From: Marinifilum sp.
Lineage (GTDB): Bacteria; UBA9089; CG2-30-40-21
NCBI GenBank assembly: GCA_020717845.1
Contig: DYDG01000015.1
Location: 1 to 39,103, forward strand
Direction: 5' to 3'
Length of the DNA stretch: 39,103 nucleotides
This document shows, in pieces, positions 5,678-39,017 of this stretch. How positions within the stretch are numbered: the first letter of the stretch is position 1; each line of letters begins with the position of its first letter. The notes beneath the pieces were generated by a model. That model had not been told where the DNA came from. It worked only from the letters and a program-made list of their open reading frames with translations, and did not search any database. Position numbers and translations under genes: made by a program.

Positions 5678-8600
5678 ATGAAGAAATGCGTCCCTTTCTT
5701 TCTTTGCGTCCTTATGCTTGTTGCGACATTGGGTCATGCACAACAGATGAAGAATGTCATCCCTTCTGATGCAGGCGATACTAACCCCTTCACGTTCAAG
5801 TTTATGCCTGACAACATAGATAAACAACTGGCCAACATAGAAAATGCACCACTTTCTATGGCTCAGATTTCCTTAAACGATGGAAGTATTGCCATCTTTG
5901 TTGACGGCCAGAATCTTTGCCATGAATCTACACCAATTGAACTAAGAAAAAAACTTATGGCAATGGATCTTTCTACTGCCGCTGGCTGGCCTGAGATAAA
6001 GGTCCACCCTGGCTGCATTGCCATTGACCCTGAGCTGGGCAGGTTTAAGTTTGCTGCTGGTGATCTGGAGAAATCAAGATTAGCAAGCAAGTGTGATGCC
6101 CTGCACACGGCTTATGGTGTCCATGTGCAGGATGGGTATGCCTATGTAGCCAATTTCCAGCAGGGATTGGAGATAATAGATATTTCGACTATCTCCAATC
6201 CTGAGAAATCTGAAAAACCTGTCCCAATAGGCAATTATAACACAGACGGCTGGGCATATGAGGTGTTCGTTTCAGGCAAATATGCCTTTGTCGCGGACGG
6301 CTATGCTGGGCTGAAGATCATTGACATCTCTTCTCCCAAAAATCCAGTCCTGCTTGGCAGCTGCGATACCCCAGGCTGGGCTTATGATGTTCAGGTTGTT
6401 GGCAGATATGCCTATGTAGCGGATTATCGATCAGGGTTGCAAATAATAGACATCTCTAACCCGCTTGATCCCTTTATCGTTGGCAAGCTGGAGATTGGCG
6501 GGGCACAGTTTCGCGGACTATATGTGTCAAATAATTATGCCTACATAGCGGATGATAAAAGCGGAATGTTTATTGTGAATGTTTCTAACCCTGCCAATCC
6601 TGCTCTGTTGTCAACCTACAAAAACAATGCTAAGGCAAAAGGGGTGTTTGTCAGTAATAATTATGCATATTTAGTTAATTATCAATCACTTTTAGAGGTC
6701 ATAGATGTTTCAAACCCTAAAAATCCTTTAGTCAAGGCAAGGCTCAGCCTGCCCGGCAATCTTTATGATATTGTTGGCTTTGATAAATATGCCTATATTG
6801 CTGCCGGCAGCGGCGGCATTCATACCATTGATCTTATTGAGCCAGCTAATCCGAAACTAATCGAGACATTTAAGACAGACGGCAAGGCATTTGATGTGCA
6901 CGCATCTAATGGATTTGTCTTTGTCGCAGATGATTATCAGGGTTTAGAGGTAGTTGATACCCCATATCCTTATGAATCACCCATTGGCAGGATAACCGTA
7001 GATTTTTACCAATCAGACCTGAAGGCATCCCTGACCTCTCCAGATGGCGGTGAAGTCTGGACAATAGGAAGTCAGCAAAATGTCGTCTGGAACATCCTTG
7101 GCGGTATCCCGCCATACAATGTAACTCTTTCATACGCTAAAGATGGAGCATATCCGGTAAATCCAAATATTGTTAAAGGGATGAAACAGGAGTCATCAGG
7201 TCCAAATGCCTATATCTGGACATTACCGCCAGTAGTTTCAGACAGAATGGGGGTTATGGTCTCAGTGATTGACTCTAAGGGCAATCGGGCAGCAGATATT
7301 AGTAATTCTTACTTTAGCCTTAAGAATGGTGGAGCAGTTCTTTTAGAGAAAAAGGCGCCGCTATTGATCCTATTGAAAGGGATAACTGGCAAGGAATGCC
7401 TGATGGGTAGCGGCAAATTGAATATCAACTGGCTAATTTCTGGTGGCATTTCACCCTATACAGTAGATTTATACTATTCCATTGATGGGGGCAAGACATA
7501 CTCTGTCATGGATAGCAGCCTGTCTCAAGACTATTATCCATGGACACTGCCACATGTTGATTCTCAGGCAATACGGGTAAAGGCAATGGTTACCGATGCC
7601 CTGGGTGAGAAGGCAACCGCAGTAAGTGAGACATTCAGACTGGATGCGACATCGCCAATTGTAGTTCATACCAATGTTCCTGATGGGCAGACAGGCATCG
7701 AACATGGAACAATACCATTTTTTATTCAGTTTAGTGAACAGATGGATAAAAATCAGCAGAATATCATTGGTTTTTCTCCCTTTGCCAGCTATACTGCTGC
7801 CTGGAATGATAGCGGCAATATCCTGACCATTACCCCAAACATCTCTCTGCCAGATGCAACGTATACCTGCACACTCTATAGTATTGCCCGGGATGTGGTG
7901 GGTAACAACCTGGCTCAGCCGTCTAAGTGGTCATTTAAGACAGCCAAAGAGGATGAAATAACTTTTTCTCCCAATGTTGCAAGTTCTAACTCCGGGCTAA
8001 CGATTAGCGGTGATTATAAGTATACATCTGATCATGGGGAGAGCATTAACCTTGGTGTAGAGATATTAGATAAGGCCGGGTTGATATTGGATCAATATCA
8101 AATAACCCCAGTGATGATTAAAAAGGAGAAGGGAGGCTTTAAGATAGGGGTGCTTTACACTGGCACTGGAGCCATTAATAGTGAAGGCATCCGACTGATA
8201 ATGTCTGCTAATGGCAGGCCATTCTATACTAAATACAGCCTCTACCCAATGGAATGGGCATCTCCAATAACAGCAGCGGTTAAAACAGACAATCGCACCT
8301 ATTATCAGGGTGATTATGCAAACATTAGCCTTGTCGTAAATACCAATAATTTGCCGCTTAACCTGAGAGAGCTAACCTTTGATACCGCAATAGGGGATAT
8401 GGTCATACGTGATAGCAGTAATAACATTGTCTTTCAATGGAGCAAGCAAAATCTGATTCCTGCCAGGGCAACAACCCTTGTTGATAATGGGACAAAGGTA
8501 TTGCTTCAGTCAACATGGCTATGTGATAAACCGGGTGAATATGTGCTTGAGGGCTGGCTGAACAAAAGCAATATCTATCCGCAGATACAGTGCTTAAAGC

Positions 8601-11161
8601 TAAGGTTTGAGGTGCAGCAGATGCGGTCTGGAAGAGTGTCTGGCAAGATTATTGATGCTGTAACCAAACAGCCGATACAGAATGCTACCGTAACCCTTGG
8701 TAAATATAGTGCGGTTACAGATAAGAATGGGGACTATTCGTTCATAGCGGAAGGTCCGCTGCCAGCGGAAGGTTCGCTACCAGCGAAAGGTCTGCTACCA
8801 GATGTTGAGCCAGGGGTATATTTATTAGTGGTTCAGGCAAAAGGGTATCAACCCTATCAAAAGCAGGTAACCATAAAGAGGGGTGAGCAGAGACAAGATA
8901 TAGCAATTACCTCTACAAGCGAGCTTCAGTTTGAGGTTGTTTTAGACAAGAAGGTGTTTGCTGTGGATGAGCCTATCATAGCTATGGCTGTATTGAGATG
9001 CAGCGGAACAAAGGCAGTAACAGTCAGTAGCTTGAGTTTAGAGGCTGAATCTCTACGCCTTGAAATAGAAACATTGTCGTCCAATCGTATAGTCCGCTAT
9101 ATTGGACCATTTTCAAGTGGTCTGCCAGCGGCAATTACCCTTAAACCAGGTGAACAAATATCCTTAAGGATAGATATCGGACAGATAGCCTTTGGCAATA
9201 GACCTGAGCTTATTTCAGGCTATAAAATTATCTCTCCTGGCAAATATGCCTTAAAAGCAACCTATAATTCATGGGGAAACCAGCCAAAAAGATGGATTGG
9301 GACATGTCAGGCAGATACTGTCTGGTTTGAGATTGGGACATCAACGGTTGTCAATAATCAACCCAAACCAGATACAGGTGCTGCTGCAGAGACTGCAGAA
9401 ATAGTGATTCCTCAGCCTCAGGAAGAAAAACCGTCAACCGCTGTCCAATCGAGTGATTGGGAGATACAGATTACTGCTCAGGCTAAACAAACAACCTCAA
9501 CGGCTGTTCTGGGCATGTCTTCTACAGCAAATAACGGCTTTGATGCTGAATTTGATGAGCCTCTGCCGCCAGCACCAGCCGATAAGGCAGGCATTCAGAT
9601 ATACTTCCAGCGACCGGAATGGGGCATGATATTTGAAAACTTTAGCCGTGATATTCGAGGATATTCACGTGATGCTGTCTGGGCTTTTCAGGTGAAAGCT
9701 CCCTCAAACGATACCGCTGCAACGCTTTCTTTTTCAGGGCTTCCTGATGGATATGATATTGTCCTTAACAGTATGGATGACAGCCGCTCCTGGAACCTGA
9801 AGACAACAGATAAATGCAATATCTCTGGCAGGACGCTCTACAGCTTTGAATTGAGACTCAAGGCTTACTCCACAGGAAATACTGCCCAGACAAAAAGCCT
9901 GGCACATACCTTTGGCTCTGGCTGGAACCTCATCTCTGTCCCGGTTGGCTCTAATCAGCAGGCAAGCAATATCTTCAAGGGTATCAGCACCTATTACCTG
10001 TATGGATATAATCCCAGCAAACAGGGATATGGAGAGGCAGCCATGATTAGTAAAGGAAATGCCTACTGGCTGGGTATGCTGGGAACAACAACAATTACAA
10101 TAGAAGATGATCCAGCAGCAGGAGACATCAGTATTCCCTTAAAGCCTGGCTGGAACATGCTGGGCTGCCCGTTTAATTTTACACCTGATTGGTCAGGGGT
10201 AATGGTCAGGAAGGATGGGGTAAGTAAGAGGCTGACAGATGCGGTTGCCGCTGGATGGGTGATGAACATGCTTTATCAATATATTAAGGGCAGTTATCAA
10301 CCAGCTGACAAAATGGAGGCATGGTGCGGATATTGGTTTGCCAGTCTGACAGACTGTGAATTGATTATCCCGGCAATATCATCTACAAATAAAGCTGCAA
10401 TTCAAGCAGCACCATTTGAAACGGTTAATAATGGAGGCTGGCAGGTGGATTTGAATATTTCAACTGGCAAATATTCTGACACAGCCAACATTAACCCATG
10501 TTTTGGTGTCCATCCCAGTGCCTGTCCTATGTTGGACATGGTTGACAGATTAGAGCCACCAGAGCCGCAGGGCGGATTTGTTACGCTTTACTTTACACAT
10601 CCAGAGGAGAAGATATTTGATAAATTTGATTGGGATATTAAACCGATAGCAGACTCCATTGACTGGGAGTTTGAGGTAAAGACCAACCTGTCAGGTGAGG
10701 ATGTATCTATTTCCTGGGACATGGAATGCCTGCCCCAGGGCTATAACCTGGTCTTGTTAGACAGGGATACACAGACAAGCGTGATCATGGATAGCATAGG
10801 TAGCTATACCTATACTGGTTGCTCGGATAATAATCTGTCTGTCAGGCATTTTATGGTGCAGGCAACAAAGGCAGAGACTGTGCATGTCCATGCTGAAATG
10901 GGTGGTTTTGATGGGCTAAAGATATATCCCAATCCAACGACAACATCACCCATGCGTTTTACTGGATTTGTTGGCAAGGCACATATCAAGATATTCACCC
11001 TGAATGGTGAATTGGTCAAAGATCTTGTAGATGTGTCAGATGGCGATAAGTGGATGCTTGATAATGATAACCATGAGCCAGTTGCCAGCGGGCTATATTT
11101 TTATATCATTAATGATGGGTTGGCAAATAAACGGACAGGAAAACTGGCGGTGATAAGATAA
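5678..11161 (+). CDS. Large secreted protein: LVIVD-type beta-propeller repeats, Ig-like domains, CarboxypepD_reg-like domain, C-terminal sorting domain
   Basis: 1827 aa; signal peptide MKKCVPFFLCVLMLVATLGHAQ; repeats 'YVADY.SGLQIIDISNP'; 'GKIIDAVTKQPIQNATVTLG'; C-terminal 'IYPNPTT...GLYFYIINDG...KLAVIR'; GGAGG RBS. Confidence 0.88.
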   Translation: MKKCVPFFLCVLMLVATLGHAQQMKNVIPSDAGDTNPFTFKFMPDNIDKQLANIENAPLSMAQISLNDGSIAIFVDGQNLCHESTPIELRKKLMAMDLSTAAGWPEIKVHPGCIAIDPELGRFKFAAGDLEKSRLASKCDALHTAYGVHVQDGYAYVANFQQGLEIIDISTISNPEKSEKPVPIGNYNTDGWAYEVFVSGKYAFVADGYAGLKIIDISSPKNPVLLGSCDTPGWAYDVQVVGRYAYVADYRSGLQIIDISNPLDPFIVGKLEIGGAQFRGLYVSNNYAYIADDKSGMFIVNVSNPANPALLSTYKNNAKAKGVFVSNNYAYLVNYQSLLEVIDVSNPKNPLVKARLSLPGNLYDIVGFDKYAYIAAGSGGIHTIDLIEPANPKLIETFKTDGKAFDVHASNGFVFVADDYQGLEVVDTPYPYESPIGRITVDFYQSDLKASLTSPDGGEVWTIGSQQNVVWNILGGIPPYNVTLSYAKDGAYPVNPNIVKGMKQESSGPNAYIWTLPPVVSDRMGVMVSVIDSKGNRAADISNSYFSLKNGGAVLLEKKAPLLILLKGITGKECLMGSGKLNINWLISGGISPYTVDLYYSIDGGKTYSVMDSSLSQDYYPWTLPHVDSQAIRVKAMVTDALGEKATAVSETFRLDATSPIVVHTNVPDGQTGIEHGTIPFFIQFSEQMDKNQQNIIGFSPFASYTAAWNDSGNILTITPNISLPDATYTCTLYSIARDVVGNNLAQPSKWSFKTAKEDEITFSPNVASSNSGLTISGDYKYTSDHGESINLGVEILDKAGLILDQYQITPVMIKKEKGGFKIGVLYTGTGAINSEGIRLIMSANGRPFYTKYSLYPMEWASPITAAVKTDNRTYYQGDYANISLVVNTNNLPLNLRELTFDTAIGDMVIRDSSNNIVFQWSKQNLIPARATTLVDNGTKVLLQSTWLCDKPGEYVLEGWLNKSNIYPQIQCLKLRFEVQQMRSGRVSGKIIDAVTKQPIQNATVTLGKYSAVTDKNGDYSFIAEGPLPAEGSLPAKGLLPDVEPGVYLLVVQAKGYQPYQKQVTIKRGEQRQDIAITSTSELQFEVVLDKKVFAVDEPIIAMAVLRCSGTKAVTVSSLSLEAESLRLEIETLSSNRIVRYIGPFSSGLPAAITLKPGEQISLRIDIGQIAFGNRPELISGYKIISPGKYALKATYNSWGNQPKRWIGTCQADTVWFEIGTSTVVNNQPKPDTGAAAETAEIVIPQPQEEKPSTAVQSSDWEIQITAQAKQTTSTAVLGMSSTANNGFDAEFDEPLPPAPADKAGIQIYFQRPEWGMIFENFSRDIRGYSRDAVWAFQVKAPSNDTAATLSFSGLPDGYDIVLNSMDDSRSWNLKTTDKCNISGRTLYSFELRLKAYSTGNTAQTKSLAHTFGSGWNLISVPVGSNQQASNIFKGISTYYLYGYNPSKQGYGEAAMISKGNAYWLGMLGTTTITIEDDPAAGDISIPLKPGWNMLGCPFNFTPDWSGVMVRKDGVSKRLTDAVAAGWVMNMLYQYIKGSYQPADKMEAWCGYWFASLTDCELIIPAISSTNKAAIQAAPFETVNNGGWQVDLNISTGKYSDTANINPCFGVHPSACPMLDMVDRLEPPEPQGGFVTLYFTHPEEKIFDKFDWDIKPIADSIDWEFEVKTNLSGEDVSISWDMECLPQGYNLVLLDRDTQTSVIMDSIGSYTYTGCSDNNLSVRHFMVQATKAETVHVHAEMGGFDGLKIYPNPTTTSPMRFTGFVGKAHIKIFTLNGELVKDLVDVSDGDKWMLDNDNHEPVASGLYFYIINDGLANKRTGKLAVIR
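8746..8801. repeat. In-frame 18-nt tandem repeat x3 (AGCGGAAGGTCCGCTGCC) encoding (A-E/K-G-x-L-P)3
   Basis: Three consecutive 18-nt units with 5-bp complementary blocks, read directly inside the 1827 aa ORF. Confidence 0.9.
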
Positions 11162-11225: not shown

Positions 11226-11397
11226 ACTCGATGTTCAAAGTTTTTGTGGCTCATAGTAACCACAAGAATAAAGCGGTAAAATGCCCGCTGATATTCTTGT
11301 AGCTGCGACCTGCCAGAGATGCTATCTCCCGCAGCTACAAATATGCTAAGCCGTTCTATTCTGACTATCACAGGTTGAAAAAACTTGAACATCGAGT
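11226..11397. mobile_element. MITE-like palindromic element, termini ACTCGATGTTCAA, possible 5-bp TSD TATTA
   Basis: Terminal inverted repeats at both ends; TATTA at 11222-11226 and 11397-11401; internal TTGTAGCTGCG...CGCAGCTACAA stem; a partial copy at 12906-13119. Confidence 0.7.
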
Positions 11398-12905: not shown

Positions 12906-13119
12906 ACGGTAAAATGCCAGCCAGCATTTTTGTAGCTGCGACTTGCCAGAGGCAGGTGAGAGTCTCACTGCCAAAGGTCTGCTGCCAGTGCTATCTCCTT
13001 GTGGTCGCTTTTTGGATAAGCGGGGACAAGCTCGCCAGAGGTGCTACCTCCCGCAGCTACAAATATGCTAAGCCGTTCTATTCTGACTATCACAGGTTGA
13101 AAAACCTTGAACATCGAGT
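12906..13119. repeat. Partial second copy of the 11226-11397 element, expanded internally by extra palindromic units
   Basis: 13051-13119 matches 11329-11397 at 68/69 nt; 12906-12951 resembles 11273-11318; the left terminus is missing. Confidence 0.8.
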
Positions 13120-13120
13120 T

Positions 13121-14827
13121 TTACAACTCCACAATAATAGGCAATATCATAGGTCTACGTTCAGTCATCTCAAACAGGTATTTACCCAAGGTATTTCTGA
13201 TCCCTGACTTTATTGCTGGCCAGTTGCTTGTTCCCTCCTGAACCAATTCTTCAAAGAGTTTTTTTACCCTTGTTCTTGCTTCATTCATCAATTCATCTGC
13301 CTCGCGAACATAGATAAAGCCGCGTGAGATGATCTCTGGACCAGCTAAGAGCTTTGCATTCTGACGATCTATGGTAACCACGACTATCAGCATTCCATCC
13401 TGTGCCAGTTGCTGTCTGTCCCGCAGCACAACCGTGCCTATATCCCCAACACCCTTGCCGTCTATTAATATCTGACCTGCTTCAACCTTTTCACCAATCG
13501 CTGCCTTTTCATGGGTTATCTCAAGTTTTGTCCCATTTTCCATGATAAAGATGTTTTTAACCGGAACACCCATCTTTTGAGCAAGCTTTGCATGATGAAC
13601 CAGGTGCCGATACTCACCGTGAACAGGGATAAAATATTTAGGCTTAACCATGGTAAACATCAGCTTAAGCTCTTCCTGACTGGCATGCCCTGAAACATGA
13701 ACCTCAGAAACATTCTCATAAACAACCTCTGCCCCCAGCTTGAAGAGATTATTTATTGTGCGGGAGATAGAGACCTCATTGCCTGGTATCGCCCGAGCTG
13801 AGATAATCACGGTATCACCCTTTGAAATTTTGATGTGTCTATGGGTATGCATAGACATTCTGGTCAGGGCAGACATGGGTTCACCCTGGCTGCCGGTAGT
13901 AATAATAACCGTCCGTTTCAACGGCACATGCTTTAATTCATCAACAGTGATAAGTGTTTTGGGCGGAATGGTCAGATAACCAAGCTCATTGGCCATGGCC
14001 GTCACATTTTCCATTGATCTGCCAACAACACAAACCTTGCGGTTATAGATAGCACTGGCATCTATTGCCTGCTGGATACGGTAGACATTGGAGGCAAAGG
14101 TGGTAACAATTATCCTGCCTGCAGCACCCCTGAACACCTGTTTAAAGATCTCTCCAACCTCTTGCTCTGAAATAGTATATCCCTCTTTTTCCACATTGGT
14201 ACTGTCAGAGAGCAGTGCCAGGGCACCGTCCTTGCATATCTCTGCAATCTTATGAAAATCTGTCCCTTCCCCATTAATTGGGGTCTGGTCAATCTTGAAG
14301 TCTCCAGTATGAATGATTACCCCAAATGGTGTATGTATCCCCAAACCTACACCATCAGGAATGGAATGACTTACTCGAAAGAATTCTACCTTAAACACAC
14401 CAAGCTGAACACTTGTCCGCGGTTTGACACAATTCAACTCCACTGAAATCGCTGGCTCAAGCTCAGATAGCTTGTTCTGGATAAGCCCCAGGGTTAGCTT
14501 TGTGCCATAGATAGGAGCCTGCAGCTTTCGCAGAACATAGGGTAATGCCCCGATATGGTCCTCATGTCCATGGGTAATAATTATCCCCCGAATATTTTTT
14601 GCCTTTTTTTCCAGATACCTAAAATCAGGGATAATAAAATCCACACCCAACATCTCATCCTCAGGGAACATCATGCCAGCATCAATAACAATAATATCCT
14701 CACCATACTCTATAGCCATCATGTTCTTGCCTATTTCACCAAGACCACCCAAGGGAATAATATTGAGTTTTTCATTTTTTTCATTCTGTTTTTGTTTCTG
14801 TTTCTGTTTTTTTCTGGCTATAAACAT
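13121..14827 (-). CDS. rnj: Ribonuclease J (metallo-beta-lactamase / beta-CASP)
   Basis: 'IIPLGGLGEIGKNMMAIEYG', 'ITHGHEDHIGALPYVL', 'GDFKIDQTPI', 'HVSGHASQEELKLM'; likely start MFIARKK at 14827. Confidence 0.93.
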   Translation of the reverse strand: MFIARKKQKQKQKQNEKNEKLNIIPLGGLGEIGKNMMAIEYGEDIIVIDAGMMFPEDEMLGVDFIIPDFRYLEKKAKNIRGIIITHGHEDHIGALPYVLRKLQAPIYGTKLTLGLIQNKLSELEPAISVELNCVKPRTSVQLGVFKVEFFRVSHSIPDGVGLGIHTPFGVIIHTGDFKIDQTPINGEGTDFHKIAEICKDGALALLSDSTNVEKEGYTISEQEVGEIFKQVFRGAAGRIIVTTFASNVYRIQQAIDASAIYNRKVCVVGRSMENVTAMANELGYLTIPPKTLITVDELKHVPLKRTVIITTGSQGEPMSALTRMSMHTHRHIKISKGDTVIISARAIPGNEVSISRTINNLFKLGAEVVYENVSEVHVSGHASQEELKLMFTMVKPKYFIPVHGEYRHLVHHAKLAQKMGVPVKNIFIMENGTKLEITHEKAAIGEKVEAGQILIDGKGVGDIGTVVLRDRQQLAQDGMLIVVVTIDRQNAKLLAGPEIISRGFIYVREADELMNEARTRVKKLFEELVQEGTSNWPAIKSGIRNTLGKYLFEMTERRPMILPIIVEL

Positions 14828-17898: not shown

Positions 17899-20071
17899 GG
17901 TAAAGCAAAAACCAAAGGCAGCACAAAAAATCCAAGGACAAGAAAAAGGAAAAGAAAAATCCTGGCTGCCGATAGAGACAGGGATTGAGGCTGTCAGGGT
18001 AAAGGGAATGGAATACCTGTGGGGAATATTGATATTCCTTGGTGTGCTTGGATGTTATCTTCATCTGCTCCCTCCAACCGTAACCTTTAGCGATAGCGGT
18101 GATTTTATTACCTGTGCCTATACACTGGGCATTGCCCATCCTACCGGGTATCCTACATGGACAATGCTGGGACACATACTTACCTGGATTCCATTGTCAA
18201 ATATCGGGATGCGGGTTACATTGCTTTCATGTATCGCTGGTGCCTTAGCCGTGATGCTGGTTTATTTTTGCCTGCTTAAACTAACCAGAAAATTGGTGAT
18301 CTCTATCGTTGGAGCAGGTGTTTTTGCCTTTTCCTACACCCATTTTCGTGTATCACAGATAGCTGATGTTTATTCACTCTATGTCTTTTTTGCTGCTCTG
18401 GTTGTCTTGATACTGCTCATCTGGCGTGAAACAAAAAAATCGTTTCATCTATATCTTGGAGCATTTGTTTATGGGCTTGGCTTTACCAATCACCTTTTAA
18501 TCATTACCCTTTTCCCGGCAATAATCTATCTAATCTGGACAGTAGACAGAAGTAGAGACGCAAAATTTTGTGTCTCTGCCTTTTCTGCCCGTAGCATGGG
18601 TATGTTGACCCTGTGCTTCTTTCTGGGCTTACTCCCCTATAGCTATCTGCTTATTAGAGGGTTTCAGCAGCCATTGATTGACTGGGGGGAGCCAACCACT
18701 ATCACCAGCTTTTTGCGGCTTATTACCGGCGGAATTTACAAAGAGAGCATGTTTAAGGAGGCTTCTTCCCCTTCTCAATTATGGGAAACATATGGGTATC
18801 ATCTTTACCTTCTGGGAAAGCAATTTACGTTCTGGCTTTCACCATTTATCATCCTGGGATTATGGAAGCTCTACCGCACAAGCCTCAGCCTGCTGATATT
18901 TTTGTGCCTTATCTTTTTGTGTAACACACTCTATGCACTTGGATTACAAAAGGTTATCCAGGGATTAATAGACCATGAATCATATCATTTACCATCAATT
19001 ATGGTTATGTCCATACTGCTGGGATATGGGATACTATTTGTGTGTGAGCTGATTAAACCCAAAAAGATTGCCTATTTCCTTGCATCTCTCTTGCCAATCA
19101 TTCCCTTAACCTCGTATTATCATCAAGCAGATGTGAGCAAATATTTCTTTGCTCATGACTATGGCATGAATCTGTTGAGGCATCTCCCAAAAAAGGCAAT
19201 GATGTTTAATCAAGTAGACTATAACGTGTTTCCATTGTGGTATCTCCAGTATGTGGAGAATGTTCGTCTGGATGTTCCGGTATTTAGTGTCTTATTCCTG
19301 ACCAGGCCATGGTATGTGGAAAGGATTCTTAAACTCTATCCTGAGGTCGCTTTGGGCTGCAAGCCAACCGATCCATACAGCCAGATATTTTCCAGTATCA
19401 TTAACAACAATGCCAATGATTATCAGATCTACTTTACCCATGATTTTGCTACTCAAAAGGATGCAAATGCTCCTATGCCCAATGAGGCAGTCAAGGATGG
19501 TATCCTTTACTGTCTGCGAGGCAAGGGGACAGGGGAAGAATTAGCCTATAACTATCGTGGGGTATTTGACCCATGTATTTATAAAGAGGTGTGGGCGGAT
19601 GAGGTCATAGGTGTTTATGGATATTATTATGCCTGGCTGGGACAGGAGGCTCTTCAAGGCAACAATTTTCCCAAAGCAATTAATTACCTAAAAAAGGCAA
19701 TGGAGTTTGACAAGGATAATGTCTCTTATTACCCTAACCTTGCCCTTGCCTATAATTCTCAAAAGAAACATACAGAGGCAATATCTATCCTGAAACAAGG
19801 GGTAAAGATACATGCAGATAAGGTTGAAATATGGTATCATCTGGCAATGACATATTACTACATGCAGAAATATGATGAAGCCATATCTAACCTGCAGCAC
19901 GCACTGAGTATTAATCCAAACGATGCCTCAAGTTATGACCTGCTTGGTGTTTGTTATCATTTTAAGGGGCAAAAGCAGCAGGCCATTGAGGCAATCCAGA
20001 CAAGCCTGAGACTCAATCCCTCCTCGCAGGAGGCAATGATGCATTTAGGGATGATTCAGGGGCAGCAGTAA
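17888..20071 (+). CDS. DUF2723 (GT117-like) polytopic membrane protein with C-terminal TPR repeats
   Basis: 'LPPTVTFSDSGDFITCAYTLGIAHPTGYPTWTMLGH' DUF2723 signature; multiple TM segments; C-terminal TPRs. Confidence 0.87.
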   Translation: MSKKVKQKPKAAQKIQGQEKGKEKSWLPIETGIEAVRVKGMEYLWGILIFLGVLGCYLHLLPPTVTFSDSGDFITCAYTLGIAHPTGYPTWTMLGHILTWIPLSNIGMRVTLLSCIAGALAVMLVYFCLLKLTRKLVISIVGAGVFAFSYTHFRVSQIADVYSLYVFFAALVVLILLIWRETKKSFHLYLGAFVYGLGFTNHLLIITLFPAIIYLIWTVDRSRDAKFCVSAFSARSMGMLTLCFFLGLLPYSYLLIRGFQQPLIDWGEPTTITSFLRLITGGIYKESMFKEASSPSQLWETYGYHLYLLGKQFTFWLSPFIILGLWKLYRTSLSLLIFLCLIFLCNTLYALGLQKVIQGLIDHESYHLPSIMVMSILLGYGILFVCELIKPKKIAYFLASLLPIIPLTSYYHQADVSKYFFAHDYGMNLLRHLPKKAMMFNQVDYNVFPLWYLQYVENVRLDVPVFSVLFLTRPWYVERILKLYPEVALGCKPTDPYSQIFSSIINNNANDYQIYFTHDFATQKDANAPMPNEAVKDGILYCLRGKGTGEELAYNYRGVFDPCIYKEVWADEVIGVYGYYYAWLGQEALQGNNFPKAINYLKKAMEFDKDNVSYYPNLALAYNSQKKHTEAISILKQGVKIHADKVEIWYHLAMTYYYMQKYDEAISNLQHALSINPNDASSYDLLGVCYHFKGQKQQAIEAIQTSLRLNPSSQEAMMHLGMIQGQQ
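18554..18577. repeat. In-frame palindrome AGAGACGCAAAATTTTGTGTCTCT inside the DUF2723 gene
   Basis: Inverted repeat closely matching the intergenic palindrome GTAGAGACGCAAAATCTTGCGTCTCTAC at 35580-35607. Confidence 0.85.
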
Positions 20072-22457: not shown

Positions 22458-25400
22458 ATGACCATTAATGCTTGCATTAATAATAAAATACGATGTGCGG
22501 TCATTATTGCCTATTTGTTGTTGTCATGCTTGAATCTTCATGCAGTATCATCACAAATACAAGGAGTGGGCCACTCTGGCGGAGTGAGCCACTCTGACGA
22601 AGTGAGCCCTTCTGGCAATGGTATCGTCTCGATTAAGTCCTTACCGCAATCATCATTTGCCAGAGGAGTGGCTATCTCATGGCCATGCCTTCAACAAGAT
22701 GCCCAGCATACTGGCAGGAGCACCCTTTCTGGACCTGATACCATGCCAATAATAAAGTGGCGTAAGCATGTTCATGGATATATAAGCGGACAGCCGATTG
22801 TTGATGAATCCGGTCGAGTTTATTTTTGCAGTTCAGTAGGTATGTTCTTTGTTGTTAAACCAGATGGCAGCGAGTCTTCAATAAACCTTGGCAGCAGTGT
22901 GGATTCTACCTGTGCCCTGGGGCAATCTGGAACAATCTATGTCTTGTGTAAAGATGGCAGCCTTTGTGCGATTGACAAAGAAACACTGCGTATTAAATGG
23001 AAATATGCTGCCAATGTCCCCTGTTCATGGGCATCTCCTGCTGTTGTGGGTGATATAGATGAAGTAATATACTTTGGCACAAATGACGGTAATCTATATG
23101 CCATAGACAGGGATGGCAGGCTGCTCTGGAAGGTTCTGCTTGGCGCATCTATTCAGTCAACACCAGCTATTGATAAATCAGGAATAATCTATATCTCATC
23201 AAACCTTGGCAGTTTACATGCTGTCTTTCCTGATGGCAAGATAAAATGGGAAAAAGGGATTCGTGTCTCACCGTTCTCTTCCCCATGTATCTCTCCGGAT
23301 AATGAATATATATACGTTACTACCCTTGATAATACCCTTGCTGCCATTGACAAGGATGGCAGTATAAATATCACAGAGATAAATTCCTCTATCTATTCCT
23401 TGCCTGCCTTTGGCCATAATCAGGAGATATACATAGGAACACAGGATGGGCTTTGTATCATTACCCCAAAAGGGATACAGCAGGTTCCTACAGGGGACAT
23501 CTTTCGCTCTCATCCGATAGTGGATGCAAAGGGTGTGGTCTATATTGCCTCCCGTTCTGGAAACATCTATGCTGTCCTTCCTGATGGTATGATAAAATGG
23601 AAATATCAGATTGGAATGACACCCGGACCCATATCTCTTGGTCCGGGCGATACGCTCTATATTGGGGACAGAAATGGTGATGTTTATGGGCTTGTTAGTA
23701 TTCAGAAGGCGTTATCGCAAAAGACGCAAAAAGAGATTAAGCTGCCTGATAGCCCCAAAGATTTGCAAATCTCTCTGAAAGGACTCGAGAATACCCTCTT
23801 CTGGAAGGATACAGGAAACAGAGAGGATGGTTTTATTATCGAACGAAAAACCCCGGACAGTGATTATGCAGAGATAGTCAGGGTAAATAAAAATATCACC
23901 AGCTTTAAGGATACCAATTTGTCTCCGGCTATGGATTATTCCTACAGGGTCTGTGCCTATAATAGCGGTGGTATCTCTAAGTATAGCAATGAGTCGATCA
24001 TTACCACCCCTCAGATGCCGCCATCTGCACCGTTGAACCTTCGGGTCACTGTCCAGGGAGGGACAGGGACAAGCCTTTTGTGGCAGGATACATCGTCTAA
24101 TGAATCAGGATTTCTCCTGGAACGGCTAAAGGGGACAGATGACGAGGGCACATACACAGAACTGTGCCGTCTTACCTCAAATACAGTTGAATATCAGGAC
24201 AACAATCTTTTGCCTGATACAGATTATTCCTATCGGATCCTGGCATACAATGATGCTGGACTTTCAGGATATTCAAATGAGTGCATGGTTCGGACACCAC
24301 AGATTCCGCCATCTGCCCCAGATATGCTTGTCTTAATGAAATTTAATAAACATGAGGTTACCCTGTCCTGGCGTGATAAATCTCAGGATGAGCAGGGCTT
24401 TATCCTTGAAAGAATGACAGACAAAGGGACATGGACAATTCTTTCGACCTTTTCTGTCCTAGAGCCAAACTCTTTGCAGTTTATAGACAAACAGATTAAG
24501 CTGAACAACAGATATTCCTATCGAATATGTGCCTATAACCCTGTTGGCAGGTCAGGATATAGCAATATTCTGGAGATTCACACTATCCCAAATCTACCTG
24601 CCATACCTACTGATCTTAAGGCAGCCTTTGTCTCTGCCAGTGGCGTCCTGCTTACATGGATGGATAACTCTGCTAATGAGAATGGGTTCAAGATAGTTAA
24701 GGCAGTCAAGGGTCAAAAGGATTATAAGCTTGTTTGCACCCTTGCTCCGAATACAACTACCTATGAAGATGCAAGGATAATCCCTGGAACAACATATCTT
24801 TACCGTATCGTTTCCTTTAATGACTTTGGACGAACAGAATATAGTAAACCGATAAGTATCACTATTCCAGCAGCCCCTCCGTCAAAACCAGAGAACATAG
24901 AGGCTTTACTTGTTGAATCAACACGAGTAAAGATTACATGGAAGGATACATCTGTGGTTAAGAGAGGAAGCATCTCTGTCAGAGGAGCTTCCTCATTCAA
25001 AATACAGAGAAAAGATCCTGGCAAAGAAGGATTTGAAACCATTGCTGCGGTTGGGCCTGGCAGCATTTATTATACAGATACAAATCTTTTGCCTGATACA
25101 AACTATTCATATCAGGTAATTTCCTGTAATAAAGATGGAGAAGGGGTATCTGATGCAGTTAATATTAAAACCTCAAGGGGATTGCCACAACCGCCATCAG
25201 GATTGAAGATTATGGATGTTTCTCAAACAGACATTAGTCTCTCCTGGGCTGGAAATTGTAGTGAGACAGGTTTTAGGGTAGAAAGAAGGAAAGGGAATAC
25301 CCCTTATGAAGAAATTGCTATCATGGGTGCAGATATAACAAGCTATAGAGATACAGATGTCATCTCAAATACCACCTATTCCTATCGGGTTTGTGCCTAT

Positions 25401-28196
25401 AACCTGAGCGGAGACTCCAAATACTCTTCAGAAGCACAGGCAACAACAAAGGATACGCAACCATTTTTCCCTTCAGAACTTAAGGCAATTGTAGGAGAGG
25501 ATGGCATTGAACTTTCATGGCAGGATAATTCGTCAAATGAAAGAGGATTCAGGATCGAACGCAAACATGATACTACTCAATTTGAAGAGATAGCCATGCT
25601 TGAGGCAAACAAAAGATATTATGAGGATAAAAACATCAGCCCCAAAACAACCTATATCTATCGTATCTATGCCTATAATGACATTGGTAATTCCCGTTAT
25701 AGCTACGAGGTCAAGGTAATTACACCAGCTCCACCAAATCCGCCATGTCTACCGGCTGAATTGAAAGGGATGGCGACAAGTCCGTCTCAGATAAACCTTT
25801 CATGGCTGGATAATTCCAGTGATGAGGAAGGGTTTGTTATCGAAAGAAAAATTCGTAAAAAATTCTATGAGATGGGAAGGGTATCGAAAAACAATACCAT
25901 ATTTACAGAGATAAACCTTATGCCAAAAACAGATTATACCTATCGGATAAGCAGTTACAACAGATTTGGTGCATCTGATTATTCCAATGAGATAACCATT
26001 ACTACCCTTGAGCCGCCCCTGCAGTCTCCAGATCAGCTTGTAGCAGCTGCAATTCATGATGGTTGCGTTCAGATTACATGGCAGGATAACTCTGATGGGG
26101 AAACAGGATTTATCATAGAGAAAGCATCACGGACAGGAGACTTTCAGGAGACAGCCATCATTGCTCCAGAGGGAATATCATATATGGATATCAAGCTCCT
26201 TCCTGACAGCATCTATCATTATCGGATACGAGCTGTTAAAGGGAACGAGTATTCAGGCTATTCAAATACAGCTATGGTTAGAACTCGCAATGCCCTTCCA
26301 AAACCGCCAGATAATCTGGTTCTGGTTACTACATCCAGAAATGGAATTACCATTGCATGGAAGGATAACTCTCTAAATGAGACAGGCTTCCGTATTGAAC
26401 GGGCAGATGGGACAAGTACTGAATATAAGACAATAGCAACCATTGGACAGGATATAAGAAGCCTTGAGGATAAAGATGTTCTGGGTGGAGCAAGTTATCA
26501 ATACCGTGTGGCTGCTTGCAATGAGATGGGTGAGTCTCAGATGTCAAATGTCCTGATTGCTGTTGCCCTTGCACCGGGTGAGATTAGCTTGCTGCAAAAA
26601 TCTATTCAGCACTCGCCTGGTCAGGAGGAATTTGCACCAAGATTGAAATGGAGCTTTCAAACCGGGCAGGGCATAAGAAACTCATCTGCTGTTCTTACAC
26701 AGGATGGAAAGATGTTTTTTGGCTCTACAGATGGTAAGGTTTATTGCCTTAAGGCAGGGACAGGGGAACAATTATGGGCTTATGAAACCCTGAAATCCAT
26801 TGTCTCTTCACCGGTATTGGATAATGATACAATATACGTGGGATCCCGAGATGGATATTTATACAGCCTGTCTACAGACGGCAGATTGAGATGGAAATAC
26901 TATGCTGGTGATTCTATTGAATCCTCTCCAACCATCCATAATGGGGTAGTATATGTTATCTCTGTCTCAGGAGACTTTTATGCTATTCTAACAAATGGTG
27001 ATGTCCGCTGGAGAATCCGGTTAAAGGGCATGGGATTTTCTTCACCTGTAATTGGGTTTGATGGCGGGATATTCGTTGGTGTCAATGGGGATCAAGACAC
27101 CAGTGCCCTTTATGCCCTTTCTGAAGAGGGAAAGATTATGTGGAAATACCCTATTGTTTATGGCATTCGAGCAGCAGCCGGGGTAGGTTATGATGGCTCT
27201 ATCTATGTAGGAGTTAAGGATAAAAACGGTGATAACCTCTATTCCTTTTCAGAGAGTGGTGATCTGAAATGGAAGTATGCCACATCAGGCTGGATAAATC
27301 AATCCATTATGGTTGGACCTGATGGCAACATATTCGTTGTCTCAAACGAGCCAACTGGAACAAGCAAAATCTATCGGATAAATGCTGTTGGGCAGCGTGA
27401 TTGGTCACGTCAGATTGGCTGGATATATTCTGCGGCTGCCATTGATTCTTCGGGTATAGTATATATCAGCGGGGAAAAAACCATATATGCCCTGGATAAT
27501 GATGGTGAGATTGTATGGGCATATACAGCAGATAGCCGTATTGCCTCCTCACCAGCTATAAGCAAGGATGGTATCGTGTATTTCGGCTGCATGGATGGAA
27601 AGATATATGCCTTAGAAAGAGGCAGCTCTCCTCCTGATGCACCTTCAGCCTTAAGTATAAAGGCTTGTTCATCTTCGTCAATAGAACTTTCATGGGTTGA
27701 TAATGCTAATGATGAAACAGGGTTTGTTATTGAGAGAAGGATTGGTGAGGATGAATTCAATGTGGTAACCACTGTCCCGGTAAATACAACTAAGTGGACA
27801 AATACCGGGCTTATGGCTGCTACCAGATATGAATACCGCATGTCAGCCTATAATGCCAGGTTTGAGTCAGATTATTCTGACTGCTGTGCCTGTAAAACAT
27901 TTCTTCAATCCTTAGAGGGGATAAAGAATGTGCAAATCATGGATACAGGTAAAGGCAATAGCCTTCAGATTAGCTGGAAAAATCCGAGCAATGACAACTT
28001 TTCCCATGTACGGATGTATCGTTCTATTATTCAGAGAGAAACCGGTAGCTTGATTAAAAATAACATCACTACTGATTATATTATAGATGAAAACCTTGTA
28101 GCTAATCTAATGTATTATTATACGCTCAGTGTTGTAGACAAGCATGGGATTGAGGTGTTATCGCAAGAACAATATTCTGGAGCAGTAAGCAAGTAA
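22458..28196 (+). CDS. Secreted protein with N-terminal PQQ-type propeller, FN3 array, second PQQ-type propeller and terminal FN3 domains
   Basis: 1912 aa. 'WPCLQQDAQHTGRS', 'GTNDGNLYAIDRDGRLLWK'; about 10 FN3 units ('LSWQDNSSNERGFRIER...YSYRVCAYN..G.S.YS'); second propeller from about residue 1390. Confidence 0.88.
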   Translation: MTINACINNKIRCAVIIAYLLLSCLNLHAVSSQIQGVGHSGGVSHSDEVSPSGNGIVSIKSLPQSSFARGVAISWPCLQQDAQHTGRSTLSGPDTMPIIKWRKHVHGYISGQPIVDESGRVYFCSSVGMFFVVKPDGSESSINLGSSVDSTCALGQSGTIYVLCKDGSLCAIDKETLRIKWKYAANVPCSWASPAVVGDIDEVIYFGTNDGNLYAIDRDGRLLWKVLLGASIQSTPAIDKSGIIYISSNLGSLHAVFPDGKIKWEKGIRVSPFSSPCISPDNEYIYVTTLDNTLAAIDKDGSINITEINSSIYSLPAFGHNQEIYIGTQDGLCIITPKGIQQVPTGDIFRSHPIVDAKGVVYIASRSGNIYAVLPDGMIKWKYQIGMTPGPISLGPGDTLYIGDRNGDVYGLVSIQKALSQKTQKEIKLPDSPKDLQISLKGLENTLFWKDTGNREDGFIIERKTPDSDYAEIVRVNKNITSFKDTNLSPAMDYSYRVCAYNSGGISKYSNESIITTPQMPPSAPLNLRVTVQGGTGTSLLWQDTSSNESGFLLERLKGTDDEGTYTELCRLTSNTVEYQDNNLLPDTDYSYRILAYNDAGLSGYSNECMVRTPQIPPSAPDMLVLMKFNKHEVTLSWRDKSQDEQGFILERMTDKGTWTILSTFSVLEPNSLQFIDKQIKLNNRYSYRICAYNPVGRSGYSNILEIHTIPNLPAIPTDLKAAFVSASGVLLTWMDNSANENGFKIVKAVKGQKDYKLVCTLAPNTTTYEDARIIPGTTYLYRIVSFNDFGRTEYSKPISITIPAAPPSKPENIEALLVESTRVKITWKDTSVVKRGSISVRGASSFKIQRKDPGKEGFETIAAVGPGSIYYTDTNLLPDTNYSYQVISCNKDGEGVSDAVNIKTSRGLPQPPSGLKIMDVSQTDISLSWAGNCSETGFRVERRKGNTPYEEIAIMGADITSYRDTDVISNTTYSYRVCAYNLSGDSKYSSEAQATTKDTQPFFPSELKAIVGEDGIELSWQDNSSNERGFRIERKHDTTQFEEIAMLEANKRYYEDKNISPKTTYIYRIYAYNDIGNSRYSYEVKVITPAPPNPPCLPAELKGMATSPSQINLSWLDNSSDEEGFVIERKIRKKFYEMGRVSKNNTIFTEINLMPKTDYTYRISSYNRFGASDYSNEITITTLEPPLQSPDQLVAAAIHDGCVQITWQDNSDGETGFIIEKASRTGDFQETAIIAPEGISYMDIKLLPDSIYHYRIRAVKGNEYSGYSNTAMVRTRNALPKPPDNLVLVTTSRNGITIAWKDNSLNETGFRIERADGTSTEYKTIATIGQDIRSLEDKDVLGGASYQYRVAACNEMGESQMSNVLIAVALAPGEISLLQKSIQHSPGQEEFAPRLKWSFQTGQGIRNSSAVLTQDGKMFFGSTDGKVYCLKAGTGEQLWAYETLKSIVSSPVLDNDTIYVGSRDGYLYSLSTDGRLRWKYYAGDSIESSPTIHNGVVYVISVSGDFYAILTNGDVRWRIRLKGMGFSSPVIGFDGGIFVGVNGDQDTSALYALSEEGKIMWKYPIVYGIRAAAGVGYDGSIYVGVKDKNGDNLYSFSESGDLKWKYATSGWINQSIMVGPDGNIFVVSNEPTGTSKIYRINAVGQRDWSRQIGWIYSAAAIDSSGIVYISGEKTIYALDNDGEIVWAYTADSRIASSPAISKDGIVYFGCMDGKIYALERGSSPPDAPSALSIKACSSSSIELSWVDNANDETGFVIERRIGEDEFNVVTTVPVNTTKWTNTGLMAATRYEYRMSAYNARFESDYSDCCACKTFLQSLEGIKNVQIMDTGKGNSLQISWKNPSNDNFSHVRMYRSIIQRETGSLIKNNITTDYIIDENLVANLMYYYTLSVVDKHGIEVLSQEQYSGAVSK
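22564..22617. repeat. In-frame 18-nt tandem repeat x3 (GAGTG-AGC-CACTC-TGGCG type)
   Basis: GAGTGGGCCACTCTGGCG / GAGTGAGCCACTCTGACG / AAGTGAGCCCTTCTGGCA; encodes VGHSGG-VSHSDE-VSPSGN. Confidence 0.92.
24964..24994. repeat. In-frame palindrome GAGGAAGCATCTCTGTCAGAGGAGCTTCCTC inside an FN3 domain
   Basis: 31-nt palindrome; encoded residues SVVKRGSISVRGAS lengthen the FN3 unit relative to its neighbours. Confidence 0.85.
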
Positions 28197-38874: not shown

Positions 38875-39017
38875 TGGTTCATAACATTTGAATTTGCAAG
38901 TTAAAGGGGCAGGGACAAGCCCTGCAGCTACAATGTAGCTGCAACCTGCCAGAGGGGGGCTCCCTCCTTGTAGTTGCGACTATTAAAGCAGCCCACAAAT
39001 TCAAATGTTATGAACCA
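38875..39017. mobile_element. 143-bp MITE with 22-bp perfect TIR TGGTTCATAACATTTGAATTTG and TSD ATAG
   Basis: ATAG at 38871-38874 and 39018-39021; internal GGCAGGGACAAGCCCTGCAGCTACA identical to 35618-35642. Confidence 0.85.

Follow-up and report, generated by a model that had tools for sequence, protein, structure and literature searches.

Introduction

Palindromic repeats of bacteria usually lie between genes, and their mode of spread is still debated. Among the closest described systems are the GTAG/CGTC REPs that go with TnpA-REP/RAYT transposases, which are short, high-copy palindromes with complementary stem variants, loop-defined subfamilies and some intragenic copies (PMC3733652). Rickettsia palindromic elements (RPEs), of ~150 bp in the cited kind, form in-frame palindromic insertions in many unrelated housekeeping genes (PMC10969869). 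Fungal mitochondrial GC clusters, double-hairpin elements and ultra-short elements are tiny hairpin repeats with presence/absence polymorphism, whose driving enzyme is not established (PMC4478555, PMC7218506). Insertion without duplication and hairpin recognition are features of the TnpA-REP relatives among IS200/IS605-derived elements (PMC8266576), and coding tandem repeats with dyad-symmetric DNA have been described as a protein motif of 25 residues in ORFs without an assigned function (PMC2996958).

Here we analyse an 18-bp repeat from a 39,103-nt stretch of DNA (the window), contig C17 of the 2.55-Mb, 94% complete MAG G000, a Candidatus Desantisbacteria-type assembly whose host belongs to the Desantisbacteria lineage. 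The genus set comprised G000 and three congeners, G001, G002 and G003; the window and all relatives compared are draft assemblies, and the named relatives are MAGs. The main unit, GAGnn-AGC-nnCTC-TGGCR, has a 5-bp stem, a 3-nt loop and a 5-nt tail. It shares the listed features of REPs, whereas REP stems measure 6–13 bp and the 18-mer has a 5-bp stem, lacks GTAG and CGTC, forms head-to-tail 18-bp arrays, lies mostly in ORFs and uses REP tips as insertion sites. No GTAG (GYAG/GTRG) stands at its hairpin foot: the unit begins with GAG and ends with TGGCR, and its flank at −4 to −1 is not GTAG. As RPEs do, it sits in frame in housekeeping genes (PolA, RecQ, PurL, PurF, AroA, RsmE and RnpA), but it spans 6 codons, differs in sequence and forms tandem arrays, and at 18 bp with a 5-bp stem it has neither the CGTC tag, the 8–9-bp stem nor the ~150-bp length of CGTC repeats and RPEs. 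It resembles the fungal elements in being a tiny hairpin repeat with presence/absence polymorphism, unlike GC42, which is 42 nt long, flanked by AG/ACT direct repeats, organellar and largely non-coding. With the dyad-symmetric coding repeats it has that symmetry in common, while encoding 6 residues in several frames and occurring in housekeeping genes and intergenic DNA. It is a single hairpin, without the terminal inverted repeats and target-site duplication of MITEs. No description of this 18-bp hairpin family turned up in the literature searched, which covers few subscription papers, in agreement with an earlier note on this DNA that knew of no named family with this architecture.

An 18-bp hairpin family in the window and its genus

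The array that first drew attention lies on the + strand in a gene for a 1912-aa fibronectin-III/PQQ beta-propeller protein (22458–28196, +) and holds three units, GAGTG-GGC-CACTC-TGGCG (22564–22581), GAGTG-AGC-CACTC-TGACG (22582–22599) and the partly decayed AAGTG-AGC-CCTTC-TGGCA (22600–22617), translated in the host protein as GVGHSG GVSHSD EVSPSG. The same site in relatives carries one decayed unit each (AAGGCAGCACTTCTGACA in G001, GAGTCAACACATCTGGCA in G002), making the three-unit G000 array ~36 bp longer. The gene also contains the unit GAGGA-AGC-TCCTC-TGACA (24977–24994, −) and a degenerate unit, GAGATAGCCACTCCTCTGGCA (22658–22678, −), which is absent from the G002 ortholog and adds to those previously listed. 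A second coding array, a 54-bp insertion at 8747–8800 (+) within a 1827-aa ORF (5678–11161, +), consists of the AGG-loop units GCGGA-AGG-TCCGC-TGCCA, GCGGA-AGG-TTCGC-TACCA and GCGAA-AGG-TCTGC-TACCA.

Further units include GAGAT-AGC-ATCTC-TGGCA (11311–11328, −), within the palindrome GTAGCTGCG...CGCAGCTAC (11299–11338), and GAGGT-AGC-ACCTC-TGGCG (13033–13050, −), at the tip of a REP-like palindrome whose joined flanks match empty REPs at 23/24 bases. An AGT-loop unit, GTGAG-AGT-CTCAC-TGCCA (12956–12973, +), is nested amid pieces of other units, and a unit whose loop is two bases longer (38947–38966, −; TGCCA-GAGGG-GGGCT-CCCTC on the + strand) adjoins the empty REP GGCAGGGACAAG/CCCTGC. All hairpins listed in the earlier note were present at the positions it gave, with some redrawing of the family. 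Its unit had the right components but placed TGGCR first, whereas the oriented form has the hairpin first and the tail last; 8746–8763 is related but belongs to the sister subfamily GCGGA-AGG-TCCGC-TGCCA; the hairpin at 38952–38966 exists with the longer loop; and its intergenic examples are real, several being nested within larger GTAG..CTAC palindromes. Subfamilies with AGG or AGT loops and a TGCCA tail bring the general form to GnGnn-AGn-nnCnC-TGSCR.

Several loci (L088 8558, L241 19247, L197 5706, window 12940–13050 and L035 29–64) contain composite units, formed by an 18-mer embedded in one of a different subfamily, and the embedding position recurs from locus to locus. A coding palindrome at window position 18563, GTAGAGACGCAAAATTTTGTGTCTCTGC, missing from the G001 ortholog, is a second, larger palindrome family inserted in genes.

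The window by itself is weak evidence for a family, barely above chance: perfect 5-3-5 hairpins number 64, where Markov shuffles give 47.7 ± 7.7, and those with an AGC/GCT loop number 4, where shuffles give 1.5. Genome-wide data decide the matter. The flagged unit, GAGTGAGCCACTCTGGCG, had 42 matches across the genome at up to 3 mismatches and its reversed control 0, and the commonest variant, GAGGGAGCCCCTCTGGCR, had 137 at up to 2 mismatches, with 92, 238 and 19 in the three congeners, 0–7 in relatives from the order and phylum, and no clear excess over control beyond the phylum. TGGC directly followed perfect 5-3-5 hairpins 53 times in 583 kb, against 0–5 for each other arrangement of the same four letters, and counts after such hairpins reached 186 for TGGC and 76 for TGCC, the median over all tetranucleotides being 16. 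A covariance model, with 150 candidates scored per genome and counts that are lower bounds, found at least 57 copies in G000, 41 in G001, 46 in G002 and 3 in G003, and 3 in one order relative. Its matches in G013 scored weakly, and the one inspected, in an accD-like coding region, was taken as chance. Among 84,980 named species, TGGCRGAGnnAGCnnCTCTGGCR was found mainly in the MAGs JASEHA01, JAHIZN01, JASEHU01 and Candidatus Desantisbacteria CG2_30_40_21 (MNYI01), alongside scattered single matches in unrelated taxa at about chance level, and no 18-mer matched in viral contigs. The 18-mer thus has ~90–240 copies per genome in G000 and two congeners, fewer in the third, a few in other members of the phylum and practically none outside it. 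These searches, among them the structure-aware one that the earlier note had proposed, bear out its real family in coding and intergenic DNA, with copies by the hundred in G000 and related MAGs.

Insertion with exact ends at a preferred target

Ortholog alignments, with relatives at ~70–92% nucleotide identity, revealed inserts of exactly 18, 36 or 54 bp with fixed ends (at the stem start and after the tail) in either orientation, and no target-site duplication or deletion was seen at empty/filled comparisons. Clean cases include an 18-bp insertion in the gene for DNA polymerase I (PolA; L243 against L221) and 36-bp insertions at L237/L068, L048/L066, L224/L064 and the RNase P protein gene (L069 against L086). 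The otherwise clean RecQ insertion (L049/L226) measures 21 bp rather than 18, which counts against the explanation favoured below. Arrays also grew by 18 and 54 bp between species. The array at 8747–8800 is precisely absent from G001, G002 and G003, and was therefore most simply gained in the G000 lineage.

We then excised each array and searched for the joined flanks, requiring at least 20 of 24 junction bases. Among intergenic arrays 37 of 66 had an empty site and among coding arrays 16 of 132, compared with 22 of 1913 random excisions (1.1%). About one array in three has an empty site that can be recognised. At a loose cut-off of 18/24, ~5% of random windows also match, and chance accounts for some of the weaker cases. 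The sites share a target preference, AAD|RNKG; across 117 non-redundant coding sites, C at −1 fell to 6% and T at +1 to 5%, while G at +4 reached 64% and A at −2 41%. The preferred bases are already present in empty alleles.

Intergenic copies often stand at the tips (loop edge) of GTAG-type REP hairpins, which hold either 0 or mostly exactly 18, 36 or 54 extra bases. The REP GGCAGGGACAAG^CCCTGC was empty 23 times and filled twice, GCGACCACAAG^GGTCGC was empty 17 times and held 18 bp 7 times, and GTAGCTGCAG^GGCTTG was empty 30 times and filled twice. The right flank of the target, GnKG, resembles the start of the unit, GAGG. Neighbouring units had the same stem in 48 of 78 cases against 24% expected, and 38% differed, so tandem copying and fresh insertion are both likely.

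Copies inside genes

Sampled stretches covered 852 kb of G000, 416 kb of G001 and 199 kb of G002, with ORFs called mechanically; those of G001 and G002 and part of those of G000 were picked around matches, and their densities are not genome averages. In contrast to the mainly extragenic REPs, 102 of 128 units in G000 lay inside ORFs, as did 80 of 117 in G001 and 53 of 81 in G002; ORFs make up 87% of the sampled G000 DNA. Each coding copy adds six in-frame amino acids, and the hosts include, beyond the housekeeping genes named above, a secretin-like protein and a sensor kinase. Array phases were uneven (sense 43/38/5, antisense 4/19/23). Frames yielding stops or Trp- or Cys-bearing peptides were depleted and the favoured frames are rich in Gly, Ser, Ala and Pro; stop-bearing combinations of strand and phase are excluded by definition, and the stop-free sense phase 2 was also rare.

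Codon differences in shared units comprised 44 nonsynonymous and 15 synonymous changes, so the peptides are mostly under weak constraint. Purifying selection on the peptides as a general rule was rejected on this count, and holds in one gene: in the secretin-like gene (L103/L196), all five codon differences between two-unit orthologs are synonymous. PurF (amidophosphoribosyltransferase, L074 3771–5216) is strikingly loaded for a housekeeping enzyme, with several units close to the N-terminus and one more close to the C-terminus. At L104/L077 and L101/L124, 18-mers in one species face 9-bp AATGCGGAA-type tandem repeats in another at the same variable protein positions, which behave as if accepting any in-frame filler.

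Origin of the stem covariation

To avoid circularity, units were sampled by exact tails on both sides and an AGC loop with the stem disregarded, giving 66 places with 29 distinct 13-mers. Stem pair 4 was Watson–Crick in 60 of 66 against 37.5 expected from composition, and stem pair 5 in 56 of 66 against 24.3. Among 41 distinct units, both-side-changed cells numbered 31 against 10.4 when shuffled (0 of 500 shuffles), and the signal collapsed once stem partners were slid. The covarying stems that the earlier note had described are thus significant.

At orthologous units across species, one-sided pair changes numbered 31 and compensatory changes 7, with ~1.6 compensatory changes expected. Because one-sided changes dominate, upkeep of hairpins in place was rejected as the source of the covariation, which comes mainly from the spread of perfect-palindrome variants. 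It mostly reflects several separately amplified palindromes (GG, GT, AG, GA, TG and AT), along with a degree of concerted replacement where copies are shared, and does not demonstrate that every copy is maintained as a hairpin. Where the earlier note had offered selection or a replication mechanism acting on hairpin structure, the data favour a mechanism of spread acting on hairpins over selective upkeep in place. Of units in arrays with an empty site 55% were perfect, and of shared units 61%, which counts against the explanation favoured below. Greater decay of older copies was not seen, and this comparison gave no ordering of copies by age or decay.

Discussion

We read the 18-bp repeat as a non-autonomous, single-hairpin dispersing DNA element moved in trans by a putative enzyme, and put the probability of this reading at roughly 70%. 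We infer enzymatic insertion because the element combines fixed ends, a lack of duplication, a two-sided target motif and a hairpin. Insertion occurs in exact 18-bp multiples with fixed ends and a preference for AAD|RNKG, into genes and REP tips. Arrays would grow by tandem duplication and by new units landing against old ones, the latter made possible by the likeness of the target to the first bases of a unit, and genic copies would survive where six added residues are tolerated. Covariation would arise as several perfect-palindrome variants are those that spread. The enzyme would recognise hairpin and tail; the simplest candidate is an HUH/Y1-like single-strand transposase, a class that uses hairpins and leaves no duplication.

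IS200/IS605 elements more widely recognise hairpins and insert without duplication. The 18-mer likewise inserts without duplication at a preferred short target; unlike them, it has no transposase gene and no paired left and right ends. A lagging-strand HUH mechanism would predict a replication-strand bias, and none was seen for the lagging template among intergenic arrays (26 of 49, judged by contig GC skew only). Counting against the trans-mobilised element, no transposase-like ORF flanked by intergenic units, as an autonomous version would be, appeared in the sample, and known transposase substrates are, to our knowledge, far longer than 18 nt.

Could the 18-mers simply be REP/RPE-type palindromes mobilised by a resident Y1 transposase (TnpA-REP/RAYT), with no separate system? 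Y1 genes are present, and one of them, at L082 (G000:C69 near 13762–14094), lies between GTAGCTGCAGGG...CTAC palindromes, which are GTAG REPs of the sort that carry 18-mers at their tips; this locus is likely a REP/RAYT unit (REPtron) of G000. Published REPs also include copies within ORFs and families whose stems change in a complementary way (PMC3733652). Yet the 18-mer has no GTAG or CGTC tag and enters REPs as a separate unit. Across the 21 Y1 loci examined, no main-form (GAG..AGC..CTC) unit lies beside the transposase gene; the REPs beside one are GTAG palindromes without it, and one locus adjoins a palindrome holding a composite unit. Nor did copy number track Y1 genes, a check that the earlier note had proposed: G002 has 5, G000 4, G001 2, G003 1 and G004 6, with only 3 units in G004. 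We consider this account unlikely. An ordinary minisatellite, in which slippage and gene conversion make and shuffle 18-bp units and hairpin template switching corrects stems, would fit the tandem arrays of 1–5 units, the above-expectation likeness of neighbouring stems, the 18- and 54-bp length changes between species and the above-chance compensatory changes at shared sites. It cannot account for units starting up at fresh sites with constant ends and a preferred target, or for single units inserted at many different sites; the empty sites disfavour it, making it improbable as the whole explanation, and it likely contributes to array length.

Readings that place selection on the repeat itself fare worse. 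That the hairpin is kept as an RNA or DNA signal, such as a terminator, an mRNA stability element or a protein-binding site, would suit the strong covariation among copies, but ORFs contain most of the copies, in both orientations, pair changes at shared sites are mainly one-sided and Rfam matched nothing in the window besides two tRNAs, leaving this very improbable. Slightly less probable still is selection of the units as protein linkers with the Gly/Ser/Ala/Pro-rich hexapeptide as the functional unit: the strong frame preference and the five of five synonymous differences in the secretin-like gene speak for it, whereas units occur on both strands and in several frames with different peptides, 20–35% of them are intergenic, and nonsynonymous differences prevail in shared units.

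If moved in trans as we propose, the dispersing element would rank with the smallest mobile-like DNA elements on record. More tentatively, it may be an active 18-bp element served by an enzyme of its own, yet to be recognised, that responds to hairpin, tail and AAD|RNKG, and may routinely add six residues to housekeeping proteins; if so, few mobile DNA units known from bacteria are as small. Owing to its small size and exact ends, insertion sites, target preference and protein effects can be read from dozens of empty/filled pairs. Set against bacterial palindromic repeats that are usually intergenic, this mostly genic 18-mer shows six-residue insertions entering essential enzymes, and its 18-nt hairpin offers a simple substrate for finding the enzyme.
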